Assembly: GCF_000421485.1 (NCBI RefSeq) | Contig: NZ_ATXC01000001.1 | Span: 62,001-126,000, forward strand | Direction of reading: 5' to 3' | Origin: Desulfurobacterium sp. TC5-1 | Lineage (GTDB): Bacteria > Aquificota > Aquificia > Desulfurobacteriales > Desulfurobacteriaceae | DNA: 64,000 bases | Shown: piece after piece, positions 4,945 through 18,322 of the stretch | Layout: every line of letters starts with the position of its first letter | Position numbering within the stretch: the stretch's first letter is position 1 | Program-made: the position numbers and the translations under genes | Notes under the pieces: generated by a model | Told to the model about the DNA's origin: nothing | The model's input: only the letters and a program-made list of their open reading frames with translations | Databases searched by the model: none

Positions 4945-6363
4945 ATGTCTTTATTTGGAACGAAAAGAATAACAACCTTTGCTCCGCCCAAGGATGCAAG
5001 AAGTGGAGGTGGTACGTACCTTCCAGGTGAGCTTAAGGGTATCATCAGGATTAACAAAGACAGGTGTGTGGCGTGTGATACCTGCAGGCCTCACTGTCCG
5101 GCGGACGCCATCAATGGGAAACTTGGCGAGCCTCATTCAATCGATGTTGACCGCTGTATAGCCTGTGGTCAGTGCCTTGTTAACTGTCCATTTCAGGCTA
5201 TTGAGCAGATGTCTCAAATTGACGAGGTTTCTGCCAAGTTAAAAGATCCAAACACAGTAGTTGTTTTTGCACCTGCCCCGGCGGTAAGAGTAGCTCTCGC
5301 AGAGGAATTTGGTGGAAAAACGGGAGAGCTTACCGTGGGCAGAATGTACAACGCCTTTAAGAAGCTTGGAAACAACGTGAAAATCTACGACATCAACCTT
5401 GCTGCTGATCAGACTATCTGGGAAGAGGGAGTGGAGTTTATCTGTAAAGTTCTCTATCATGTTGTTGGTCTGAAAGAATGGAAGATAGATGAGGAAATGG
5501 CAAAGGCTCTTGGAATTGAGCCTGTGACGATTAATCTCGAGTGGTGTGAGCACCATCCTCTTCCTCACTTTACAAGCTGCTGTCCTGGATGGATAAGATG
5601 GATGGAACTTTATGCTCCTGCCGTTCGTCCTCATGTTTCAGGTACAAAATCCCCACAGCAGATATTCGGTCCGTCGGCCAAAACGTGGGCTGCTCTTGAT
5701 GTCTGGAATGTTGATCCAAGAAACGTTTATAACGTTACAATAATGCCGTGTACTGCAAAGATTTTTGAGGCTTCAAGACCGGAATTCAAGGCTGCTTACG
5801 AGTATCTTAAGGAAAACGGTAAGATTCCAGAGGATACACCGCCATTCCCTGACGTTGACGCTGTTCTTACGACAAGAGATATGGCTGAGCTTCTCAGGAG
5901 AAACGGTATTAATCCTCTTGAAATGCCTGAAAAAATTGAAAATCCTGAACCTACGGAGATTTATACAGGTGGTGGAACAATTTTTGGAACTTCAGGTGGA
6001 GTTACTGAAGCTGCTCTCCGTATGGCTTACTTTGTTCTTTCCGGTGAAAGGCCACCAAAATGGGATATCTATCCTGTTCGTGGTTACACAACAGGTATCA
6101 GAGAAGCGGTTATTCCAATTCCAGTTAAGCTTCTTGGTGGAAAGACGTTTGATCTTCATGTGTGTGTTGTTAACGGAAATAGGAACCATCTTCCGACAAT
6201 AATAGAAGAGGTACTGGATGGAAGTTCCAAGTACCACTGGATAGAGGTTATGAACTGTCCTGGTGGATGTGTTGATGGTGGTGGACAGCCTGTTAACGGT
6301 ATGGGAACAGGCTGGATTGATGGGCTTTTCCCAATTCCAAAAGAAGTTGGAAACAGTATTTAA
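4945..6363 (+). CDS. hydA: [FeFe] hydrogenase large (catalytic) subunit
   Basis: The 472-residue protein begins with two [4Fe-4S] ferredoxin motifs (CVACDTCRPHCP and CIACGQCLVNCP, residues about 40-95), followed by the H-cluster domain. All three H-cluster signatures are present: TSCCPGW near residue 210, MPCTAKIFEASR near 270, and EVMNCPGGCVDGGGQP near 435. The second Cys of TSCCPGW is the known proton-transfer residue. The two-cluster architecture with a separate small subunit matches the periplasmic dimeric enzymes of Desulfovibrio. It has no signal peptide of its own, consistent with export by hitchhiking on the Tat signal of the next gene. It opens an operon that also holds its cytochrome b and all three maturases. 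Direction, uptake or evolution, cannot be told from sequence; the membrane cytochrome favours uptake. Confidence 0.96.
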   Translation: MSLFGTKRITTFAPPKDARSGGGTYLPGELKGIIRINKDRCVACDTCRPHCPADAINGKLGEPHSIDVDRCIACGQCLVNCPFQAIEQMSQIDEVSAKLKDPNTVVVFAPAPAVRVALAEEFGGKTGELTVGRMYNAFKKLGNNVKIYDINLAADQTIWEEGVEFICKVLYHVVGLKEWKIDEEMAKALGIEPVTINLEWCEHHPLPHFTSCCPGWIRWMELYAPAVRPHVSGTKSPQQIFGPSAKTWAALDVWNVDPRNVYNVTIMPCTAKIFEASRPEFKAAYEYLKENGKIPEDTPPFPDVDAVLTTRDMAELLRRNGINPLEMPEKIENPEPTEIYTGGGTIFGTSGGVTEAALRMAYFVLSGERPPKWDIYPVRGYTTGIREAVIPIPVKLLGGKTFDLHVCVVNGNRNHLPTIIEEVLDGSSKYHWIEVMNCPGGCVDGGGQPVNGMGTGWIDGLFPIPKEVGNSI

Positions 6364-6388
6364 TTTGAGTTTGAGGAGGTAAGGAGGT

Positions 6389-6745
6389 ATGAGGAGGCTA
6401 CCTTACAAGTATGAAGAAGGTCCTGCTTCTATGGTTGTTTCAAGGAGGGGATTTCTCAAAGTTACAGGTATCCTTGCCGCGTTTGTGGCTTTTGGCAAGG
6501 CAGTTATAGGGTATTTCTATGGAAAAAGGCACGATTACCTTACATCGAGGCAGGAAGGTCTTTACAAAGATGATAAGATTCATCAGAGAGAGGGACTTGC
6601 TGCTTCTCAGGAAAACCCGACAGTCAAGGAGTATTACGAGCAGTTTGGAGAATATCCTTTAAGTGAGAAATCCCATCACCTTCTCCACACGCATCGTTAC
6701 TACGAAAGGTGGCAGTTAGCAAAAAGGGAGGTGCGTAATGGCTAA
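6389..6745 (+). CDS. hydB: [FeFe] hydrogenase small subunit with Tat signal
   Basis: This 118-residue protein has a twin-arginine motif (SRRGFLKVTG, about residues 18-27) and a hydrophobic stretch, then a mature part resembling the Desulfovibrio small subunit: REGLAASQENPTVKEYYEQF and SEKSHHLLHTHRYYERW match the conserved QxNxxVKxxY and KSHxLLHTH patterns of the family. The small subunit wraps around the catalytic subunit and carries both through the Tat pathway to the periplasm. The start at 6389 is backed by GGAGG just upstream. A second ATG at 6431, which would place the arginines at residues 4-5, is also possible. It begins 25 bases after hydA and overlaps the cytochrome gene by 8 bases. 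Confidence 0.92.
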   Translation: MRRLPYKYEEGPASMVVSRRGFLKVTGILAAFVAFGKAVIGYFYGKRHDYLTSRQEGLYKDDKIHQREGLAASQENPTVKEYYEQFGEYPLSEKSHHLLHTHRYYERWQLAKREVRNG

Positions 6746-7436
6746 TGATTACACAAACAAAGTTTTAAAATTTCCTCTTCCAAATAAGATTTTTCATAAT
6801 GTGAATGCCGTGACCTGGTATATTCTTCTTATAACAGGCCTTATTGCTTACTTTAAGCTTGCATCGCCGCAAACGATGGCTCTTATGATGAAGATTCACA
6901 TCTACACAGCTGTTATTTTTACGCTTAACTTTATTGCATTTGTATTCATTACGCCCCACAGATTCTACATGATGCTTGACAGACTCTTTACCTGGGATAG
7001 AGATACATTTGCATGGTTTAAAAACTTTGGTGGTTATCCGAGGATGCTTGGAATTCCTTTTGGTCCTGAGGAAGTTGCGCCTCAAGGCAAGTACAACGCA
7101 GGTCAGAAGTTAAGTTATCCAATGTTTGTATTCTTTGTTGCGATTCTTATCGTAACAGGATGGGGACTTTTCCTCTTTAAGCATGCCCTTGGAAAAGGTC
7201 TTTTTACTGTTATGTTCTACGTTCACGTTTGGGGTTCAATCCTTGTTAGTGCAATGGCAACGTTCGGCCACGTTCCACTTGCCCTTATTCACCCGGACGA
7301 CGTTAAAGCTATGTTTGGATTTGGACCTGGAACTGTACCTATAGAGGTTGCGGCTCATCACAACCCTAAATGGGTTGAAAATGAAATTGTAGAAATTGAT
7401 ATTCCAGAGGATATTCCGGAGGGACATCACCACTGA
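6738..7436 (+). CDS. Membrane cytochrome b subunit of the hydrogenase
   Basis: A 232-residue integral membrane protein with four predicted hydrophobic segments (about residues 20-45, 55-75, 125-150 and 160-185). Histidines lie inside or at the ends of the helices (KIHIYTA, FYVHVWGS, FGHVPLALIHP), the pattern of di-haem cytochrome b561/FdnI-type subunits. Such subunits anchor periplasmic hydrogenases or formate dehydrogenases and pass electrons to the quinone pool. The overlap with the small-subunit gene and the shared operon make it the electron acceptor of this [FeFe] hydrogenase. The protein ends in a short His cluster (GHHH). It is analogous in role to HydC or HynC but I assign no firm symbol. 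Confidence 0.85.
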   Translation: MANDYTNKVLKFPLPNKIFHNVNAVTWYILLITGLIAYFKLASPQTMALMMKIHIYTAVIFTLNFIAFVFITPHRFYMMLDRLFTWDRDTFAWFKNFGGYPRMLGIPFGPEEVAPQGKYNAGQKLSYPMFVFFVAILIVTGWGLFLFKHALGKGLFTVMFYVHVWGSILVSAMATFGHVPLALIHPDDVKAMFGFGPGTVPIEVAAHHNPKWVENEIVEIDIPEDIPEGHHH

Positions 7437-8845
7437 TGAAATTTCGCATTGAGAGAGACTTTTTAGGAGAGGTATCTATCCCCGCTGACCGGTACTACGG
7501 CATTCATACCGCCCGGGCGGCGGGGAATTTTCCTGTTTCTAAGTATCGTGTTCCTTTCGAGCTTATAAAAGGTTTTGCAGTTGTTAAAAAGGCTGCTGCC
7601 ATTGCAAATGGAAGGCTTGGCTATCTGGAAGAGAAAATTGTTCAGGCGATAGTTAAGGCCTGCGATGAGATTTTAGATGGGAAGTTTAAAGAGGATTTTA
7701 TAGTTGATGCTTTTCAGGGTGGTGCCGGTACTTCCACAAACATGAATGTAAACGAAGTTATAGCTAACAGGGCAAATGAAATTTTAGGCAGTAAAAAGGG
7801 AAAGTACTTTCCCGTTCACCCCCTTGAACATGTAAATCTTCATCAATCAACAAACGATACATATCCAACGGCTCTTAAGATTGCTTCTCTCTTTCTTCTG
7901 AAGGAGCTCAGTGAAAAAGTTGCCGAGTTTCAGGGGAGCCTTCAGAAGAAGGAGAAAGAGTTTGCTTCCATCGTAAAAATAGGCAGGACAGAGCTTCAGG
8001 AAGCTGTTCCCATAACGCTTGGCAGAGAGTTTTCCGGGTATGCTGATGCTATTTCCCGGGATAGATGGCGTATATGGAAGGCTATGGAGAGGATAAGGAC
8101 ACTTAATATCGGCGGAACTGCCATCGGCACCGGTTTGGCAGCTCCAAGAGATTACATTTTTGAAGTCATAGAAGTTTTGAGAGAGCTTACAGGCCTGAAC
8201 ATATCAAGGCATGAAAATCCCGTTTCTGTCACCGCTTTTGCTGACGACTTTGTGGAAGTGGCAGGAATTCTTGACGCATATGCATCAAACGTTTTTAAGA
8301 TAGCGAATGATTTGAGGCTCATGAACATGTTAAAAGAGATAAACTTAAAACCTGTTCAGCCAGGTTCTTCCATAATGCCGGGAAAAGTTAATCCGGTTAT
8401 CATGGAAGCTGCAATGCAGGTTGCAATTAGAGTTAAAGCCAATTTTTCAACGGTTAGAGAGTGTGCATCTCACGCTTCTTTTGAAATAGTAGAGTTTATG
8501 CCGCTGCTTGCTTTTTCTTTAATAGAGGCTTTAAAACTTCTTATTAATATTTCTGAGATTCTTTCTAAGCACGTTGCCCAGATAAGGCCTGTTCCTGAAA
8601 AGTGTCAGGAATACTTTGATAGAAGCTTTTCCCTTGTTACGGTTATGTTGCCCCTTATAGGTTATGAAAATGCGACAGAGGTAGTTAAAGAGATAAAAGA
8701 GAAGGGAGTGAAAAACATTAGAGATTATCTGACACAGAGGTTTGGCAGGAAAGTTGTTGAAAAACTTCTCTCACCAGAATACCTTAACGCCTTCGGCTAT
8801 GATGAAGAGGACTTAGAGGAGCTTTTAGATGAATTCAACACCTAA
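7436..8845 (+). CDS. aspA: Aspartate ammonia-lyase-like enzyme within the [FeFe] hydrogenase operon
   Basis: At 469 residues this is a full-length member of the fumarase/aspartase family. The signature GSSIMPGKVNPVIMEA and the substrate loop HQSTNDTYPTA are intact, and the N-terminus (RDFLGEVSIPADRYYGIHTARA) resembles aspartases more than class II fumarases. The expected reaction is L-aspartate to fumarate plus ammonia. Its ATG overlaps the cytochrome stop (TGATG), and hydF starts inside its 3' end, so it is tightly embedded among maturation genes. Aspartase genes are known neighbours of hydE/F/G in several anaerobes. A role in supplying ammonia for the azadithiolate bridge of the H-cluster is a plausible inference, not shown here. 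Fumarase activity is the main alternative. Confidence 0.82.
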   Translation: MKFRIERDFLGEVSIPADRYYGIHTARAAGNFPVSKYRVPFELIKGFAVVKKAAAIANGRLGYLEEKIVQAIVKACDEILDGKFKEDFIVDAFQGGAGTSTNMNVNEVIANRANEILGSKKGKYFPVHPLEHVNLHQSTNDTYPTALKIASLFLLKELSEKVAEFQGSLQKKEKEFASIVKIGRTELQEAVPITLGREFSGYADAISRDRWRIWKAMERIRTLNIGGTAIGTGLAAPRDYIFEVIEVLRELTGLNISRHENPVSVTAFADDFVEVAGILDAYASNVFKIANDLRLMNMLKEINLKPVQPGSSIMPGKVNPVIMEAAMQVAIRVKANFSTVRECASHASFEIVEFMPLLAFSLIEALKLLINISEILSKHVAQIRPVPEKCQEYFDRSFSLVTVMLPLIGYENATEVVKEIKEKGVKNIRDYLTQRFGRKVVEKLLSPEYLNAFGYDEEDLEELLDEFNT

Positions 8846-10115
8846 AGGATTGAGGCTTCACATAGGCGTTTTTGGCAGGACAAATGTGGGTAAGTCAAGT
8901 CTTATAAACCTTCTGACCGGTCAGGAAGTTTCTATAGTTTCCGACGTTCCCGGCACCACGACAGATGTTGTTGAAAAGGCGATGGAGATTCTCCCTATAG
9001 GTCCTGTGCTTTTTCTTGATACTGCCGGTGTAGATGACGAGTCTCTACTTGGGAAAGAGAGAATAAGAAAAGCAATGGAGATACTCAAGCGGTGTGATGT
9101 TGCCGTTTTAGTTCTTGAACCTGATAGGTTTACCGATTTTGAAGAGCGGTTGATAGAAAAGTTGGAGGAGAAAAAGATTCCTTTTGCCTTTGTTGTCAAT
9201 AAAGTGGATTTTTCAAAACCGTCTGAAAGTTTTGTAAAGAAGCTTGAAGAGAAAGCACCTGTTATTCAAATTTCTGCAAAGAGCGATTCAAGGGAAGAGG
9301 CACTTTCAAAATTCAAGAAGATTCTGCTTAAGGTTGTTCCTTCAGAGTTTCTAAAAGAACCTCAGCTTATTGGTGACCTTGTTCCCCCAGGCGGTATAGC
9401 TGTCCTTGTTGTTCCTATAGATCTTGAAGCACCTAAAGGGAGGCTGATTCTGCCTCAGGTTCAAACGATACGAAATGTTCTTGATAGTGATGCAACGGCA
9501 ATTGTTGTTAAGGAAAGGGAACTTCCATTCATGCTTTCTATCTTAAACAGGAAGCCTGACGTTGTTATTTGTGACTCTCAGGTAGTTTTAAAGGTTTCTG
9601 CTGACGTTCCTTCAGGTGTTAAGTTCACGACATTTTCGGTGCTCTTTTCAAGGTATAAAGGTGATATTACCGAATTTGCAAAAGGACTTGCAGCAATAAA
9701 AAATCTTAAAGAAGGTGCAAGGGTTCTTATCGCTGAATCCTGCACTCACCATCCAATAGAGGACGATATCGGTAGAGTTAAGATTCCCCGATGGATAAGG
9801 CAGTTTACCGGTTTAAAGGATATAGAGTTTCACCATCACGCAGGAAGAAGTTATCCGGAGGACCTATCCGGTTACGATGTTGTTGTTCACTGTGGAGCCT
9901 GCACTTTAAATAGAAGGGAGATGCTTTCAAGGATAGAAGCTGCTAAAAGGGCCGGCGTACCAATAACAAACTACGGGATGACAATATCCCTCACTCAAGG
10001 GGTGGCAGAGAGGGTGCTTGAACCTTTCCCATCAGCTTTGAGGGCTTTTAGAAACAGCGTTAAAAGGAGGAAGAGAAATGTTAACCGAAGAGGCTGTAAA
10101 ATCCTGGATATCTAA
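8829..10115 (+). CDS. hydF: [FeFe] hydrogenase maturation GTPase HydF
   Basis: The 428-residue protein has an N-terminal GTPase domain with GRTNVGKSS (P-loop), DVPGTTTD, LDTAGVDD and NKVD. It is followed by a dimerisation region and a C-terminal cluster-binding domain with CTHHP and, about 50 residues later, HCGACTLNRREM. The C-x-H...C-x2-C set is the known [4Fe-4S] ligand pattern of HydF. HydF is the scaffold on which the diiron subcluster is assembled before transfer to apo-HydA. The start overlaps the aspartase end by 17 bases and its own end overlaps hydG by 38 bases. The last roughly 12 codons lie in the overlap and are rich in Arg and Lys. Confidence 0.95.
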   Translation: MNSTPKGLRLHIGVFGRTNVGKSSLINLLTGQEVSIVSDVPGTTTDVVEKAMEILPIGPVLFLDTAGVDDESLLGKERIRKAMEILKRCDVAVLVLEPDRFTDFEERLIEKLEEKKIPFAFVVNKVDFSKPSESFVKKLEEKAPVIQISAKSDSREEALSKFKKILLKVVPSEFLKEPQLIGDLVPPGGIAVLVVPIDLEAPKGRLILPQVQTIRNVLDSDATAIVVKERELPFMLSILNRKPDVVICDSQVVLKVSADVPSGVKFTTFSVLFSRYKGDITEFAKGLAAIKNLKEGARVLIAESCTHHPIEDDIGRVKIPRWIRQFTGLKDIEFHHHAGRSYPEDLSGYDVVVHCGACTLNRREMLSRIEAAKRAGVPITNYGMTISLTQGVAERVLEPFPSALRAFRNSVKRRKRNVNRRGCKILDI

Positions 10116-11544
10116 CGTTATAAAGCCAGAACAGTATGAGAAGTACATGGAAAACGGCAGGGATTTCATCAACGATGAGGAGATATGGGAAAAATTAAAG
10201 GCAAACAGTAATCCCGAACCTTCCCGTATAAGAGAAATTATAGCAAAATCTCTTGAACTTGAAAGGCTTGAACCTGATGAAACAGCGGCACTTTTGCACG
10301 TTAAAGATGAAGAACTATGGCAGGAGATTTTTGAAGCGGCTGGAAAAATAAAAGAGCAAGTTTACGGTAGACGGATTGTAACTTTTGCGCCACTTTACGT
10401 TTCCAACTACTGTGTGAACGATTGTGACTACTGTGGTTACAGAATTTCCAACGATAAGGTAAAGAGAAAACGCCTTACAATGGACGAACTTAGAGAGGAA
10501 GTGGAAGCACTTGTCAAGCAGGGTCACAAAAGGCTTATCATGGTTTACGGTGAACATCCCCTTTCAGATGCAAAGTTTATAGCAGAGACTCTTAAAGTTA
10601 CTTATGAAACGAAAGTCGGTCACGGGGAAATCAGAAGGGTAAACGTTAACGCAGCTCCTATGAGCGTTGAAGACCTTGAACTTTTAAGGGATATTGGAAT
10701 TGGGACATATCAGGTTTTCCAGGAGACATACCACCACGAAACCTACAAGAAACTTCACAGAGGTCTTAAAGCAAACTATCAGTGGAGGTTATACGCACTT
10801 CACAGGGCGCAGGAAGCAGGTGTTGACGACGTCGCTATAGGAGCACTTTTTGGCCTTTACGACTGGCGTTTTGAGGTAATGGGACTTCTATACCACGCTA
10901 TTGATCTTGAAAAGCGTTTTGGCGGCGTCGGACCTCACACAATTTCCTTTCCGAGGCTTGAGCCGGCAGTTGGAACACCATTCTATGAGAAGCAGAGGAA
11001 GTATCTTGTAAGTGACGAAGATTTCCTGAAATTGGTTGCGGTTATAAGGCTTTCCGTGCCTTACACAGGTATGATTTTAACGGCAAGAGAACCTGCAGAA
11101 ATAAGAGAAAAGGTTCTGCCTCTTGGTGTTACTCAGCTTGACTTTGGAACAAACATCGGTGTTGGTTCTTACAGCAAAGGTGCCTTTGACCCTGAGAAAC
11201 AGCAGTTTCTCATTAACGATAACCGTTCACTTGACGAAGGTATCAGGTGGCTTGCTTCCACTGGAAGGATTACAAGCTTCTGTACAGCAGGTTACAGATG
11301 TGGAAGGACAGGAAATTACTTTATGGATATAGCAAAAACCGGTAAGGTTCATCACCTCTGCATGCCTAACGCCATTTTGACGTTTAAAGAGTATCTCCTT
11401 GACTACGCTTCTCCTGAAACGAGGAAGGTTGGTGAGGAGCTTATAAAGAAAGAACTTGAAGCCATTAACCATCCAAAATTAAGGGAAATTGTTGAAGAGT
11501 ACCTTAAAAGGATAGAAAACGGTGAGAGAGACCTTTACGTATAA
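10078..11544 (+). CDS. hydG: [FeFe] hydrogenase maturation radical SAM tyrosine lyase HydG
   Basis: This 488-residue radical SAM enzyme has the CX3CX2C cluster motif CVNDCDYC near residue 115 and the HydG-specific second cluster motif near the C-terminus (CTAGYRCGRTGNYF, with a further Cys in HHLCMPN), which separates HydG from ThiH. It cleaves tyrosine to p-cresol and dehydroglycine, which yields CO and cyanide bound to an Fe-cysteine synthon. A strong Shine-Dalgarno site (AAGGAGG) inside the 3' end of hydF supports the ATG at 10078. The next gene is a small unknown and then hydE. Confidence 0.95.
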   Translation: MLTEEAVKSWISNVIKPEQYEKYMENGRDFINDEEIWEKLKANSNPEPSRIREIIAKSLELERLEPDETAALLHVKDEELWQEIFEAAGKIKEQVYGRRIVTFAPLYVSNYCVNDCDYCGYRISNDKVKRKRLTMDELREEVEALVKQGHKRLIMVYGEHPLSDAKFIAETLKVTYETKVGHGEIRRVNVNAAPMSVEDLELLRDIGIGTYQVFQETYHHETYKKLHRGLKANYQWRLYALHRAQEAGVDDVAIGALFGLYDWRFEVMGLLYHAIDLEKRFGGVGPHTISFPRLEPAVGTPFYEKQRKYLVSDEDFLKLVAVIRLSVPYTGMILTAREPAEIREKVLPLGVTQLDFGTNIGVGSYSKGAFDPEKQQFLINDNRSLDEGIRWLASTGRITSFCTAGYRCGRTGNYFMDIAKTGKVHHLCMPNAILTFKEYLLDYASPETRKVGEELIKKELEAINHPKLREIVEEYLKRIENGERDLYV

Positions 11545-11548
11545 TTTT

Positions 11549-11574
11549 AGGGGGATATTTTCCCCCATATTTTT
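11549..11574 (+). terminator. Hairpin between hydG and the small downstream gene
   Basis: GGGGGA (11550-11555) and TCCCCC (11561-11566) form a six-pair G+C-rich stem with a five-base loop, followed by CATATTTTT. It resembles a weak intrinsic terminator. Because two more genes on the same strand follow at once, it more likely attenuates transcription into the small gene and hydE or stabilises the upstream mRNA. Confidence 0.5.
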
Positions 11575-11586
11575 ATGGAGTTAAGT

Positions 11587-11853
11587 ATGGAAAAAGGAGA
11601 AGTGATAAAACGTTTTGAAGCGTTTCAAAAAGAGATTAAGCAGAAGTTTCCCGATGTTAACGTTGCCCTGTGTGAACTTTTGGGGAGGCGCTGGTCTTTT
11701 CTTTGTGGTTCTTCTATGGAGCTTTCTCCTTTTGTTAAAAGGATCAAAATTAATGAACGTTACGGTGTTTCCATTTTTGACGGTAGTATAGATGAAAGTA
11801 AGTCAGAAGAGATAGTCAGGATTCTCAAAGGGTATTTTGATGGAGATAAGTGA
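11587..11853 (+). CDS. Small unknown protein between hydG and hydE
   Basis: An 88-residue protein from the ATG at 11587, which has GGAG six bases upstream; an ATG at 11575 would add four residues but has no clear ribosome-binding site. Its 3' end overlaps hydE by 14 bases, as expected for a coupled gene. It has mixed alpha/beta character, two Cys (in ALCELLGRRWSFLCGSS) and no membrane segment or metal motif. I do not recognise the family. It does not resemble the ACT-like TM1266 hydrogenase regulator that I know from such clusters. Position suggests a link to H-cluster maturation, for example as a partner of HydE or HydG. That is inference from neighbours only. Confidence 0.7.
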   Translation: MEKGEVIKRFEAFQKEIKQKFPDVNVALCELLGRRWSFLCGSSMELSPFVKRIKINERYGVSIFDGSIDESKSEEIVRILKGYFDGDK

Positions 11854-12937
11854 CGATAGGATTCTTAAAGAACTTTCAATAGATGGTGTCAGCGGTTCTC
11901 TTATATCACTTGCAGACCTTATAAGAAAACAAAAAGTTGGTGATTTTGTCTATTTTAGAGGTCTTGTTGAAATATCAAACATCTGCTCAAAAAACTGCTA
12001 TTACTGCGGTTTGAGGAAAGATAATACGAAATTGAGAAGGTACGCCCTGTCTGAGGATGAAGCAGTTGCTATTGGCGTTTCTATATATAAAAGCGGTATT
12101 TCCTCACTTGCCCTTCAGTCGGGAGAAGTAAAAAGTGACAGATGGGTTGAAAAGCTTGTAAACATTGTGAAAAGGATAAAAGAAGAGACAAAAAAGATAG
12201 ATGAAGAAAATGGAAAACAACCAGAAGGTGCCGGTATAACAATATCCTTTGGTGAACTTGAGAAAGAACACTACGAAGAGCTTTTTAAGGCCGGTGCCCA
12301 CAGGTATCTTTTGAGGATTGAAACTTCGGATAGAGAGCTTTACGAAAAACTTCATCCTGTGGATAAAGACCATTCTTTTGATACAAGATTAAGGTGTCTT
12401 GAGTGGCTTAAAGAGATAGGTTATCAGGTTGGAACGGGTGTTATGATAGGCGTTCCGGGACAGACGATTAAGCATCTTCTCAACGACCTTAAATTTTTTA
12501 AAAGTTTTGATGTAGATATGGTAGGTATGGGGCCTTACATAGAGCATAGAGATACGCCTCTTTTCGTGTGGTACAGAAAAGAAATAGAGAAGAAAGGTTT
12601 TTACAGGAAGGCTTATGAGCTTTCCGTGAAGATGATAGCTTTTGCCAGAGTTATTCTGGAAGATGTAAACATAGTTGCATCAACTGCTCTTCAAAGTATT
12701 CCCGGATGTGAGAATTCCCTTGAAACTGGAATAATAGCCGGTGCAAATGTTGTTATGCCTGTTTTTACACCTTCTGATTTCAAAAAAGCTTATTCAATTT
12801 ACGAGAACAAGAACAATCTGACCGTTTCTCAGATGGCAGAAAGAATAGAAAGGGCAGGATACACGCCTGTTTTTGATAGATGGGGAGATCCTGTTCACTA
12901 CTTTGAAAGGATAAAGGGGCAGACCGCCCCTGTTTAA
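11840..12937 (+). CDS. hydE: [FeFe] hydrogenase maturation radical SAM protein HydE
   Basis: A radical SAM protein of about 365 residues with the cluster motif CSKNCYYC near residue 50, in the BioB/HydE/PylB family. A segment GMGPYIEHRDTPL fits HydE, and the Fe-synthon-processing role in H-cluster assembly is established for the family. I chose the ATG at 11840; a TTG immediately before it is in frame. The gene overlaps the small upstream frame and ends five bases before the convergent fmdB-like gene. A short hairpin (AGGGGC/GCCCCT, 12915-12931) overlaps its 3' end and may help terminate the operon. Its presence completes the HydEFG set. Confidence 0.94.
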   Translation: MEISDDRILKELSIDGVSGSLISLADLIRKQKVGDFVYFRGLVEISNICSKNCYYCGLRKDNTKLRRYALSEDEAVAIGVSIYKSGISSLALQSGEVKSDRWVEKLVNIVKRIKEETKKIDEENGKQPEGAGITISFGELEKEHYEELFKAGAHRYLLRIETSDRELYEKLHPVDKDHSFDTRLRCLEWLKEIGYQVGTGVMIGVPGQTIKHLLNDLKFFKSFDVDMVGMGPYIEHRDTPLFVWYRKEIEKKGFYRKAYELSVKMIAFARVILEDVNIVASTALQSIPGCENSLETGIIAGANVVMPVFTPSDFKKAYSIYENKNNLTVSQMAERIERAGYTPVFDRWGDPVHYFERIKGQTAPV

Positions 12938-12942
12938 ATACC

Positions 12943-13140
12943 TCAGCCAAACGGTGAGCAGGTTGCACCTGTTGAGCTTGAACTTGAGCTGCTTCCACCT
13001 ATACCGCATGCAGAAATTTTCTTTTTAACGTTTTGAGAACCGCAGTATGGACACTTTACCTCGCTTACCTTTGAAGCTGAAATAACAAACTTTTCAAACT
13101 CTTTTCCACAATCTTCGCATTTAAACTCGTAAACCGGCAT
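12943..13140 (-). CDS. FmdB-family zinc ribbon protein
   Basis: A 65-residue protein opening MPVYEFKCEDCGKEFE, with a second CxxC (CPYCGS), which together form the FmdB/CxxC_CXXC zinc ribbon. The C-terminus is a low-complexity Ser-rich tail (GGSSSSSSSTG) ending in a Cys-containing ATCSPFG. The family was named from a putative regulator of formamidase expression, but its function is generally unknown. A Shine-Dalgarno site (AGGAGG) is visible just upstream. It is convergent with hydE with only five bases between them. Confidence 0.85.
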   Translation of the reverse strand: MPVYEFKCEDCGKEFEKFVISASKVSEVKCPYCGSQNVKKKISACGIGGSSSSSSSTGATCSPFG

Positions 13141-13336
13141 TCAACCTCCTTGATATTTTGTTCATTCTAAAAATGTAGTGAAACTGGATTTTCTGTCAAG
13201 TATTAGTGGTATATTCAGCTGGATTTTAAATAAACCAGAGACGGTGCTTGTTTTATACGATGGTAGCGTAAAGACGGAAATTATACTTTATCGTTTTAAT
13301 CCCTGATGGGAAGGAGAAAAGGCAGCTAAGGGAAAA
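13141..13336. other. Gap upstream of fmdB-like gene and pseudogene
   Basis: This stretch must hold the promoter of the minus-strand fmdB-like gene (AT-rich from 13150 to 13210). I see no further gene in it. The right part, from about 13250, may be eroded 5' sequence of the ATPase relic that follows, since a stop codon breaks the frame just upstream of 13337. Confidence 0.4.
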
Positions 13337-15491: not shown

Positions 15492-16400
15492 TTAAAACAC
15501 CTCCTCTTCTATATCTTCAGCATATATATTGTTCCACAGCGCACTGAATCTTCCATATCTGTTCCCGTCCCATTTGTTTGACGGTATTCCAAGTTCTGCT
15601 CTCTCAAGGGTAGTCTCTATGTTTTTCTTTAGTATCTCCTTTGCCATATTTTCAACCCTTGAAATTTCTTCCTTCCCCGCCTCTTTGACTTCAAAAGGAA
15701 CATCTTCGAAGAGCTTTTCAGCCCTTTTGCTCCTGACAAAACATAAAGAATAGTCATTATCAAGGCAAGGGACAAATGTAACGTCACTTCCCCGGGAACT
15801 TACGTTCATACAAACCTTGCAGCCCTCGTTAACATAAAAATAATACTCTTCGGGTGAAAATGCAAATAATTTAGATGATTTTATATAAATTTTACCTCTA
15901 TTAATGAAAATTTCATTTATTCTTCCTGAACTATCTCCTTTTTCTTTAAGGAGGCACTTTATTCCTTCCATTGAAGCCGCACCAATGCAGAAAATTCCAA
16001 TCTTTAGTGCGAACTTCAACGCGGTAAAGTTGTACCCTATTCCGAAATACTGCATCTTATTTATTCCATCAAGGACACAAGAATGTCCAACAACAGCCAC
16101 CTTCTCAAAAGAATATTTTTGCGTTATTTCCTTTAATATAGAATTCTGTCCACCATGGACGAAGAAAAACTGTTCATTGCCTTTTAATTCCTCTTTAGAT
16201 TTTATAAATACAGGAGTTGTTACACTTGTACCATTTTTCTCTTTGATGGTTGTTCCTATTACACTATCTATTAACCCCTTATCAAATGCTGATTCAAGAA
16301 GAATCCTGAGATTGTCTTTTGGTGTTGCGTTCTTACCAGCTCGGAGCAAGAATGCCTTTGTAAATTTTCCCAGTATGAATTGCCTGTTAAGCCCAAGCAT
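15492..16400 (-). CDS. FrhB-like (coenzyme F420 hydrogenase beta) subunit
   Basis: A 302-residue protein of the FrhB/FdhB/FpoF family. The N-terminal half (LRAGKNATPKDNLRILLESA, then DSVIGTTIKE and VAVVGHSCVLDGINKMQYF) follows the FrhB order, and a Cys pair occurs in GCKVCMNVSSRGSDVTF. In methanogens FrhB carries FAD and a [4Fe-4S] cluster and reduces F420. In bacteria relatives use other acceptors. The protein lacks the N-terminal ferredoxin motifs that some relatives have; those are in the small subunit here. It lies between the small subunit gene (nine-base gap) and arsR (one-base gap). F420 as the substrate cannot be confirmed, since no F420 biosynthesis gene is in the window. Confidence 0.8.
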   Translation of the reverse strand: MLGLNRQFILGKFTKAFLLRAGKNATPKDNLRILLESAFDKGLIDSVIGTTIKEKNGTSVTTPVFIKSKEELKGNEQFFFVHGGQNSILKEITQKYSFEKVAVVGHSCVLDGINKMQYFGIGYNFTALKFALKIGIFCIGAASMEGIKCLLKEKGDSSGRINEIFINRGKIYIKSSKLFAFSPEEYYFYVNEGCKVCMNVSSRGSDVTFVPCLDNDYSLCFVRSKRAEKLFEDVPFEVKEAGKEEISRVENMAKEILKKNIETTLERAELGIPSNKWDGNRYGRFSALWNNIYAEDIEEEVF

Positions 16401-16409
16401 TGTCCCTCC

Positions 16410-17150
16410 CTATCCATAAACCGGCTGGGGATATGGTTTGAATGACTGAGGACATGCCGCAAGACATGAACCGCAGCTTATACAGAATAATCTATTGAAT
16501 TGAGGCCTCTGCGTTCTTTTGCTGAATTCAAGGGCTCTTGTTGGGCAAGCGGAGACACATGTACCACAACCAGTGCAGAGTCCTTTGTTTACCACTTCTG
16601 TAAGGATGTCATATCCGCAGGCAAATGTTGAAAATACCATGAATTCAAACGGTCTTAAAAAATCCTCGTTTACCTCAAGTAGTGCAAGGAGAAACTTGTA
16701 CAAGAGGTTAGGATTCGGTGGACATCCCGGAATAACATACTTTATCTTGTTTCTTAAAAAGGCAACTTCTGTTATGGGAATTGATGCCTGATGAGAAGGT
16801 TGTGGAGCCTGGGCACCGGTATTTAATCTTCTTATTCCTCCAAAAGCTGCACATCCACCTACGGCTACGATAATGTCTGCTTTTTCGTATATTTCTTTAA
16901 GTAATCTGATGTGGGGTTCAAAACCTATAGAGAAAGTGCCTTCAACGAAAGCAACATTTATTTTAGGAATTTCTTTGTTATTTGTAAGAAGATTTGAGTA
17001 GGCTATTTCTACGGTATCAAGAACATCTGCAAGTTCATCAAACATATCAAGGAAAGCTATTTGGCATCCTGAACAGCTTGAAAGATGGAAAAAGCCAACT
17101 TTAACTTTTATGTCTTCTTCAAGTTCAAAGTTATCAAATGAATAAACCAA
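16410..17150 (-). CDS. [NiFe] hydrogenase small subunit (FrhG/MvhG-like)
   Basis: A 246-residue small subunit. The proximal cluster ligands are visible in SSCSGCQIAFLD, GGCAAFGG and PGCPPNP. The C-terminal part adds two [4Fe-4S] ferredoxin motifs, CTGCGTCVSACP and CISCGSCLAACP, as in FrhG of the F420-reducing (group 3) enzymes. There is no Tat signal, so the complex is cytoplasmic. Electrons would go from the NiFe site through these clusters to the FrhB-like flavoprotein encoded next. Gaps of about ten bases on each side show a single operon with the large subunit and FrhB-like genes. Confidence 0.88.
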   Translation of the reverse strand: MVYSFDNFELEEDIKVKVGFFHLSSCSGCQIAFLDMFDELADVLDTVEIAYSNLLTNNKEIPKINVAFVEGTFSIGFEPHIRLLKEIYEKADIIVAVGGCAAFGGIRRLNTGAQAPQPSHQASIPITEVAFLRNKIKYVIPGCPPNPNLLYKFLLALLEVNEDFLRPFEFMVFSTFACGYDILTEVVNKGLCTGCGTCVSACPTRALEFSKRTQRPQFNRLFCISCGSCLAACPQSFKPYPQPVYG

Positions 17151-17161
17151 CTTTCTCCCCG

Positions 17162-18322
17162 TTAGTGTGTTGCACAGGCGATACAGGGATCGTACGCCCG
17201 CACCACCATCTCAGCATATTCAACTTTTTCACCTTTAAGTGCTTCTGCAATGGCTAACATATTTATAGCAGTAGGTACAACAATCTTATAATATGTAATC
17301 TTTCCGCTTTTATCAACTCTTACCTGGTGAATATTTACGCCTCTTGGTGCTTCAACAATTCCTGTACCCGTTGTTTCTCCGTCGGAAACAGGAAATTCTC
17401 TATTCCATAATTCTCTATTAAAAGTGTTTTCTTCAAGTATTGTTTTCATCTTCTTTAAAGCAGATATGATTTCTTCTGCTCTCAGTATGTGGAGTTCTTT
17501 TATACCTCCTGATGGTTTAAAACCTTCTTTTTTAACTTTTCTTGCTCTCACGCCTGTTTCAACGGCTTTTCCTTTTACCTTTACGAGGGTGTTTGTTGCT
17601 TCTCTTTTAAAAGGGAACTCTGGAAAAACTTCCTGGGGATACAGCTCTTCTATATCTTCTGAATGGAAGTCTTCAGCTATAAAGAAATCAAGGTTATGAG
17701 AGCCAAGATTATCAGGCAGGTTTCGTTTCTTCCATATGTGATTTATATAGTCAATAAATCTTTTAGTTTCCTTCTCTGCAAGGGGAATACTTTCATCAGC
17801 GAGGTTTATAAGTCTCTCTCTGACAGATTCATCTATTGATGAAGAGATACCGCCCACGACCACATTTGGCGGATGAACGAACTCACCGCCGATTATTTCC
17901 ATTATCGTTGAGATATTTTTTCTGATACGCTGAACGCCTTTTATAAATTCGAATCGTTCGTCTTTGTCTTCAAACATGTTTCCCGATATGACAATGTGAT
18001 GGAGCAGATGATTATAGACTCTTACGGCAAGGTTAAGAGCCTCTCTCAACTTTTCTGCAGCTTCTGGAACTTCAATGTTGCAGGCGTCTTCTATTGCTTT
18101 AGCCGCCGCTATGCTGTGAACTGCCTGACACATGCCGCATATTCTTGTTGCAGCGACCGTCGCAAAGGGAGCTTCCTTGTCAAGAAGGAGAGTTTCAAAG
18201 CCTCTAATAGGAACAAGAGCGTAGTAGTAACCTTCAACGATAATGCCCCTTTCAACCTTTAAAACCAGCTTTGAGCATCCTTCGGTAAGTGGAATTGGCT
18301 CTATTTCAATTCTCTTTATCAC
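17162..18322 (-). CDS. [NiFe] hydrogenase large subunit lacking a cleavable C-terminal tail
   Basis: A 386-residue large subunit of group 3 type. The N-terminal NiFe ligands lie in TRICGMCQAVHS (near residue 65), and the C-terminal pair in DPCIACATH. The stop codon comes directly after that His, so there is no C-terminal extension of the kind normally cut by a maturation endopeptidase, and no FrhD-like protease gene lies in this operon. The start is a GTG 17 bases inside the end of mfd, with AAGGAG eight bases upstream. H2 would be split here and electrons passed to the small subunit. Closest families are FrhA and MvhA; the exact electron acceptor is uncertain. Confidence 0.88.
   Translation of the reverse strand: MIKRIEIEPIPLTEGCSKLVLKVERGIIVEGYYYALVPIRGFETLLLDKEAPFATVAATRICGMCQAVHSIAAAKAIEDACNIEVPEAAEKLREALNLAVRVYNHLLHHIVISGNMFEDKDERFEFIKGVQRIRKNISTIMEIIGGEFVHPPNVVVGGISSSIDESVRERLINLADESIPLAEKETKRFIDYINHIWKKRNLPDNLGSHNLDFFIAEDFHSEDIEELYPQEVFPEFPFKREATNTLVKVKGKAVETGVRARKVKKEGFKPSGGIKELHILRAEEIISALKKMKTILEENTFNRELWNREFPVSDGETTGTGIVEAPRGVNIHQVRVDKSGKITYYKIVVPTAINMLAIAEALKGEKVEYAEMVVRAYDPCIACATH

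Follow-up and report, generated by a model that had tools for sequence, protein, structure and literature searches.

The 64,000-nucleotide stretch of the Desulfurobacterium sp. TC5-1 genome analysed here (the window; contig NZ_ATXC01000001.1, positions 62,001 to 126,000) carries an operon for an [FeFe] hydrogenase. Eight genes lie in a row on the + strand between 4945 and 12937 (Table 1): the structural genes hydA, hydS and a cytochrome b gene, a lyase gene, the maturase genes hydF and hydG, a small gene called orf92, and hydE. Five of the seven junctions are overlaps (8, 1, 17, 38 and 17 bp); the other two are gaps of 25 and 30 bp. The first-pass annotation of this DNA had listed seven of these genes, with overlaps between most of them. 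Those genes are all where it placed them, on the + strand, each passes a family cut-off, and the overlaps are real. Only orf92, between hydG and hydE, had been overlooked.

Table 1. Genes of the [FeFe] hydrogenase operon, in window coordinates
Feature	Position	Strand	Evidence
hydA (hydL), [FeFe] hydrogenase large subunit	4945..6363	+	PF02906 199.5 bits; motifs
hydS, small subunit, twin-arginine translocation (Tat) signal SRRGFL	6389..6745	+	PF02256 58.5 bits; motif
cytochrome b membrane subunit (= HydH in strain HR11)	6738..7436	+	PF01292 61.0 bits
aspA-like lyase, hyd-linked clade	7436..8845	+	NF008909 540.8 bits (cut-off 510); clade, residue Glu186
hydF, GTPase scaffold maturase	8829..10115	+	TIGR03918 538.8 bits; GKS, DTAG, NKVD, CxH...HCxxC motifs
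hydG, radical S-adenosylmethionine (SAM) tyrosine lyase maturase	10078..11544	+	TIGR03955 501.8 bits; CxxxCxxC, C-terminal Cys motif
orf92, small conserved protein	11575..11853	+	no Pfam/NCBIfam match; 24-locus family, always directly after hydG
hydE, radical SAM maturase	11837..12937	+	TIGR03956 281.3 bits (cut-off 254.6); CxxxCxxC

The operon and its hydrogenase

The matches of the structural triplet to PF02906, PF02256 and PF01292 all exceed their cut-offs. The HydEFG maturation set is complete: all three proteins pass their equivalog cut-offs with metal motifs intact, and the H-cluster, radical SAM, GTPase and HydF cluster motifs are preserved throughout the operon. For hydE, the start ATG 11840 is preferred over TTG 11837. 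A comparison of gene order, which the first-pass annotation had called for, found the same order in three relatives (G001, G003 and G005) and in the covered part of a fourth (G002). The ratio of nonsynonymous to synonymous substitution (dN/dS) between the window and G001, of the same genus, is 0.016-0.085 across all eight genes. In the comparison with G003, seven genes lie at 0.03-0.09, whereas orf92, which changes more quickly, reaches 0.33. The operon genes are under purifying selection and their order is kept in relatives, far beyond what chance would produce.

Regulatory signals are less clear. A promoter scan found 8 sites where 15.5 were expected in shuffled sequence; because fewer sites were found than in the shuffles, the TTGACA-17-TAAACT site before hydA is no evidence of a promoter. 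A terminator-like hairpin with a T-rich tail lies at 11550-11566 (+) between hydG and orf92, in the sole gap among the maturase genes. A similar stretch occurs at locus L026, and none at L023, L024 and L048, where the genes overlap or abut.

What kind of hydrogenase does the operon encode? The large subunit has two N-terminal 4Fe-4S motifs and the three cysteine motifs of the H-cluster (TSCCPGW, MPCTAK and MNCPGGCVDGGGQ). Together with its PF02906 match and a separate small subunit bearing both PF02256 and a Tat motif, these features mark a group A heterodimeric periplasmic [FeFe] hydrogenase. HydA is 91-96% identical in the same-genus genomes G003 and G001. It scores 353.8 bits with TIGR02512, below the curated cut-off of 405.95, and is not assigned to that model; the small-subunit part at the C-terminus forms its own chain in this operon, which may lower the score. 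A periplasmic catalytic subunit and a Tat-bearing small subunit had been proposed. The small subunit does bear the Tat motif. No such motif was seen on the large one, whose export can only be presumed.

The genome encodes a second HydA, in a NuoE-NuoF-HydA cluster (approximately G000:C1:1424166-1425899). This second [FeFe] hydrogenase (L028, 6470-9900) consists of a NuoE-like, a NuoF-like and a 577 aa HydA frame in a row, with no maturases beside them. No HydF other than the window's scores over the cut-off in the genome, so the window's maturases presumably serve both HydAs.

A lyase lineage linked to hyd operons

The lyase passes its subfamily cut-off (Table 1) and has the STND and GSSxMPxKxN motifs. 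Its best PDB match is the Bacillus aspartase AspB (1j3u, 3.9e-112). The window residue Glu186 (codon at 7991) aligns with His188 of that enzyme, the residue that contacts the amine.

Is this difference shared by other lyases of hyd operons? Relatives of the aspA/fumC type were drawn from 297 genomes of the phylum of Thermodesulfobacterium thermophilum and 249 of the phylum of Ruminiclostridium papyrosolvens. The set was completed with loci from a HydG search and with relatives of the window, and a lyase was counted as linked when hydE, hydF or hydG was nearby. In the Thermodesulfobacterium-phylum set 130 of the 138 listed places were examined, the 8 lowest being dropped; in the Ruminiclostridium-phylum set it was 90 of 123, picked by hand and not at random. 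Linkage was judged inside the stretch retrieved, with flanks of 1.5 kb for L130-L159 and L260-L289, about 6 kb for the others and less at contig ends. Some unlinked labels may therefore be wrong, and the unlinked label of G022 is due solely to the shortness of its contig (4.6 kb). In-frame stops in some relatives of both phylum sets are probably matches that overrun the true stop.

All 60 hyd-linked loci (59 genomes, since L154 and L062 are the same locus) have STND. At the position equivalent to His188 they carry Glu (41) or Gln (19) and never His; the loci were scored in two sets, with 31 Glu and 13 Gln in the first and 10 and 6 in the second. The 92 unlinked STND-type rows have His in 77 cases, Gln in 10, Glu in 4 and Cys in 1, and the SSND fumarase-type rows have His in 86 of 86. 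The His by which the Bacillus aspartase holds the amine is replaced in hyd-linked lyases by a carboxylate or an amide. In a tree of 166 rows, which took 14 of the 86 SSND rows and was built by a quick method without bootstrap, with some long branches, the 60 hyd-linked rows all fall within one clade of 64 (SH-aLRT 100). Outside that clade His occupies the position in 91 of 102 rows. By these comparisons the window lyase belongs to a lineage that is found almost only in hyd operons. Because one clade holds all 60 linked loci and has its own residue, we regard the lyase as a member of a hydrogenase-associated lineage and probably an aspartase. Aspartate is the best guess for its substrate, since the catalytic loop and STND are kept. 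It is the only aspA/fumC-type gene in the genome. A class I fumarase is encoded elsewhere, so the lyase need not be the cell's fumarase, and we rejected that role.

Other lyases add detail to this picture. PDB entry 3oce, labelled a fumarate lyase, has Gln at the His188-equivalent position, as does Escherichia coli AspA. The latter, whose sequence is absent from the tree, would fall outside the hyd-linked lineage. The lyases of L136 and L137, unlinked and outside the hyd clade, have Glu at the His188-equivalent position too, within the sequence GRTENQ; their open frames are 635-659 aa long. A clade member at L348 (6017-7432) has Glu at the key position and lies beside thiamine-type genes (ThiH-like, not HydG); no GcvH was found in its genome, G454. 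In Paenibacillus (L071-L074) each locus has two hydF-like matches, which flank aspA on either side.

Bridge assembly and the glycine cleavage system

In the published route, the azadithiolate bridge of the H-cluster requires aminomethyl-lipoyl-H-protein, which is made by the T-protein of the glycine cleavage system (PMC11736057; PMC12752695). H-cluster assembly in vivo is also said to require it (PMC12752695). The genome at hand is 1.65 Mb and 99.8% complete. Does it encode these proteins?

We found neither GcvH and GcvT, the H- and T-proteins, nor LipA, on all of which assembly by that route would depend. The Pfam GcvT model matched none of 18 genomes from the family and its sister family, including all 16 of the family, and matched all seven other genomes of the same search. 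GcvH gave only weak matches in the family, the best (3.3e-6) in a 143 aa frame at a contig end in G012; the remaining matches lie in frames of 616-655 aa, which we read as biotin carrier domains. LipA did not exceed its cut-off in seven family genomes (G000, the genome itself, with G001, G002, G003, G005, G006 and G011) or in the sister-family genome G022. At 1e-8 the genome itself had no LipA match, and G005 had one weak match of 35 bits against a cut-off of 310. The three models match in most of 14 control genomes; at E 1e-8 GcvT matches 11 and GcvH 10. Because no T-protein, H-protein or LipA was found, the published route probably cannot run here as described.

The gap extends beyond the family. 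We surveyed 55 hydF/hydG genomes: six relatives and, from 80 HydG loci, the 49 with hydF in the stretch. GcvH was found in 16 and a GcvT match (1e-8) also in 16, 11 of them strong and full-length (E < 1e-90); the locus-derived genomes carry no completeness figure. Named isolates without GcvH include Ruminiclostridium papyrosolvens C7, Pectinatus frisingensis, Butyrivibrio sp. MC2013 and Collinsella tanakaei.

We propose, with a probability of roughly 0.6, that the operon serves an [FeFe] hydrogenase and its assembly, that the lyase feeds ammonium to the bridge, and that the bridge carbons arrive by a route independent of the glycine cleavage system. The large subunit, the Tat small subunit and the cytochrome b would form a membrane-bound periplasmic enzyme that exchanges electrons with menaquinone, in either direction, and the same operon would supply the machinery that assembles its H-cluster. 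The lyase, as an aspartase, would free ammonium from aspartate beside HydF, and this ammonium would end up as the bridge nitrogen. HydE, HydF and HydG would mature the NuoEF-linked second HydA as well. With neither H- nor T-protein found, the bridge's two carbons and its nitrogen would have to reach the HydF-bound [2Fe] unit without aminomethyl-lipoyl-H-protein, for example as formaldehyde or methylene-folate plus ammonium. In this scheme we infer the enzyme activity, the direction of electron flow, the delivery of ammonia and the alternative carbon route. Formaldehyde can replace serine and serine hydroxymethyltransferase (SHMT) as the carbon source in defined maturation, in a mixture that still lists T-protein (PMC13339137); for an alternative carbon route this is only a hint. 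A broader version of the proposal, to which we give even odds, is that the Desulfurobacteriaceae and many other hydEFG bacteria build the bridge without the glycine cleavage system. The dedicated lyase of this family, with its carboxylate at the amine site, would give ammonium to a HydF-bound step, with another one-carbon carrier and possibly with help from orf92.

The first-pass annotation had already suggested that the lyase provides ammonia for the bridge. In outline this is supported: an in vitro experiment with E. coli AspA and 15N-aspartate put label into the bridge (Pagnier et al. 2024, PMC11736057), the window lyase lies in the hyd clade, and the genome has its class I fumarase elsewhere. 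The idea is not new, since the same paper reports both the labelling and that aspA is usually near hydF.

Several findings weigh against our proposal. GcvH is present in 49 of 59 genomes with a linked lyase and in 5 of 38 hydF/hydG genomes whose retrieved stretch shows none (Fisher p 6e-12). This co-occurrence fits the glycine cleavage model, to which the window's family is the exception, having kept the lyase with no glycine cleavage system found. Besides the window's own, nine linked-lyase genomes lack GcvH: G001, G002, G003 and G005 of the family, and G078, G346, G264, G250 and G608. The linkage label changes only four times on the HydF tree, and there are only four phylogenetically independent pairs, for which a sign test is not significant. 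Because the genomes are related and that test is not significant, we claim no causal link between lyase and GcvH. The absence of the system rests on GcvT, GcvH and LipA; LipS1/LipS2, GcvP and SHMT were not searched. The lyase itself falls below the cut-off of the NCBI aspartase equivalog TIGR00839 (442.6 against 681.2 bits) and is not filed there. Finally, clade members L348 and L170 have other neighbours and no hyd context, and L311 has no hyd gene within 9.8 kb; the fourth non-linked row of the clade, L034, has short flanks.

Could the components be present but too divergent for Pfam, so that the canonical route runs after all? Absence in a profile search is never proof, and Thermotoga maritima, which matches GcvH and GcvT among the controls without a LipA match, implies that lipoylation can be achieved by other enzymes. 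Yet GcvT is missing from all 16 family genomes, one of them 99.8% complete, the two proteins are missing together, and the same models succeed in most controls. We consider this explanation doubtful. Slightly less so, though still unlikely, is that the lyase is an ordinary metabolic aspartase which provides fumarate as an acceptor for H2 oxidation, or uses aspartate as a nitrogen or carbon source, and does not feed the H-cluster. Fumarate can act as an electron acceptor (PMC11736057), strain HR11 of D. thermolithotrophum has two fumarate reductases (PMC12724263), and in Pelobacter aspartate use coupled to hydrogen disposal has been proposed (PMC3543383). Against this, the hyd-linked lyases form their own clade with a residue signature, apart from unlinked aspartases, and adjoin hydF, hydG or hydE in the loci whose order was compared. 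The H-cluster would need little ammonia, yet a flux role would leave the constant linkage unexplained.

Two further roles for the lyase seem less probable still. It might run in reverse, or give ammonium to HydF's monovalent-cation-gated GTPase and not to the bridge. Glu at the amine site could change ammonium binding, but K+ could equally serve the GTPase; we think this role improbable. Least probable of all is that the lyase acts as a class II fumarase or on an amino acid other than aspartate. Its score with the fumarase model TIGR00979 (fumC), 403.7 bits, is close to its TIGR00839 score, and its amine-contacting residue is unlike that of the characterised Bacillus aspartase. The TIGR00979 score nevertheless fails the cut-off of 664.75, the lyase has STND and Glu in place of SSND and His, the catalytic loop GSSIMPGKVN is retained, and the lyase stands apart from the fumarase-like rows of the tree. 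The best PDB match and the presence of a class I fumarase point the same way.

Against the stated requirement for H-protein (PMC12752695) stands a natural counter-example: a 99.8% complete genome that encodes two HydAs, the whole of hydEFG and a hyd-linked lyase, and in which neither H- nor T-protein was found. It makes the source of the bridge carbons and nitrogen directly testable. Because the hyd-linked lyases belong to a single lineage with a distinctive active-site residue, assays should be aimed at a hyd-clade lyase and not at E. coli AspA. Finally, orf92 is an additional, unstudied candidate for an accessory factor.

Distribution, orf92 and known systems

The first-pass annotation also held that the operon is self-contained and could be transferred as one functional unit. 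Of 61 genomes searched, 6 have a HydF that exceeds its cut-off. Four belong to the window's genus and one to the sister family; another genus of the family, with three genomes searched, adds the sixth. The distribution is patchy. HydG is 88% identical to the window's in L048, a Desulfurobacterium metagenome-assembled genome, and 84% in G005, where the operon adjoins different genes. The best BLAST relatives outside depend on the gene. For hydA and hydS they are L057, L161 and L062 (about 50% and 36-40%), which include Thermodesulfobacterium and a Nitrospiraceae genome; for aspA and hydF they are L212, L216, L224 and L209 (55-60%), one group in the Thermodesulfobacterium-phylum set; for hydG and hydE it is L340 (73% and 48%), from the Ruminiclostridium-phylum set. 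The GC content of the operon (39-46%) is a small rise over its surroundings (36-43%). Judged from BLAST, the operon looks more like a mosaic of modules than a block that moved whole, so that transfer as a unit remains a conjecture despite the patchy spread and the different neighbours in G005. Self-containment is true only in part: structural, maturation and lyase genes do stand together, but a second HydA lies elsewhere, the genes have different nearest relatives, and the H- and T-proteins that assembly is said to need were not found.

The protein encoded by orf92 has about 88-92 aa (about 10 kDa). Its start is probably ATG 11587, since G001 has ACG in place of the first ATG. An iterated profile found 24 members among the loci examined, and 17 of the 80 HydG loci carry the gene. 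The 24 come from Desulfurobacteriaceae, Atribacteria, Caldatribacterium, Thermodesulfobacterium, Nitrospiraceae, Aminicenantes, Hydrothermota, Mesoaciditoga, WOR-3 and others. In all 24 the gene directly follows hydG, the domain starting -28 to +74 bp from the end of hydG, and the consensus core is W..E.LGKRWS.IAG.....P...L..RYG. An AlphaFold2 model from 18 sequences has a helix, four strands and a helix (pLDDT 86.8, pTM 0.79). Searches of Pfam and NCBIfam gave no match for orf92; we rejected membership in a Pfam family, as none matched more than one of 18 members (best E 0.015). A PDB sequence search gave nothing better than E 0.46, and Foldseek only middling fold matches, with E no better than 0.08. 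Similarity to Roadblock/LC7 (Z 6.9, root-mean-square deviation 2.5, 76 aligned at best) is tied with that to GAF and other domains. Might orf92 replace the H-protein? We rejected this, because it also occurs in GcvH-bearing genomes (for example L055-L059, L062 and L067). Our guess is that orf92 is a putative partner of HydG.

Immediately after hydE, on the opposite strand, is a short CxxC-CxxC frame (12944-13141, -), which we take to resemble an FmdB-type zinc ribbon. Further on, at 15492-18322 (-), the translations alone reveal apparent small and large [NiFe] hydrogenase subunits and an FrhB-like protein; these genes are probably the F420-type frhAGB set reported in HR11 (PMC12724263).

How does the operon compare with systems already described? 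Among the closest is HydLSH of D. thermolithotrophum HR11, the same structural triplet, which was detected by proteomics and assigned to menaquinone (Kubik and Holden 2025, PMC12724263). At low H2, HydS and HydH were 2.2- to 2.7-fold lower and HydL was unchanged. The accessible part of that account has no mention of maturation, the lyase or orf92, unlike the operon described here. The [FeFe] operon of Sulfurospirillum cavolei has the same components and prompted the same idea of a complete cluster (PMC4794192). Its order, however, is large, small and membrane subunit, HydG, aspartate ammonia-lyase, HydE and HydF, so that lyase and maturases are arranged differently, and the available description includes no orf92. 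Pelobacter has a similar operon with a lyase (PMC3543383). Between hydG and hydE of Shewanella oneidensis lies HydX (SO_3924), of function likewise not identified in the accessible text (PMC2991362); at 23.9 kDa (PMC4694547) it is larger than orf92, and because the sizes differ the two are probably different proteins.

Pagnier et al. (2024, PMC11736057) describe the same placing of aspA next to hydF and likewise propose it as the ammonium supplier for the bridge. Their experiments used E. coli AspA with proteins of the glycine cleavage system, whereas the window has a hyd-clade lyase with Glu186 in a genome where that system was not found. Our literature search, which left subscription papers mostly outside, found no report of hydEFG genomes lacking the glycine cleavage system or of a hyd-linked lyase lineage. 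The operon is of a known kind and its main interpretation is already in print; what it adds is the lyase lineage, the missing glycine cleavage system and orf92.

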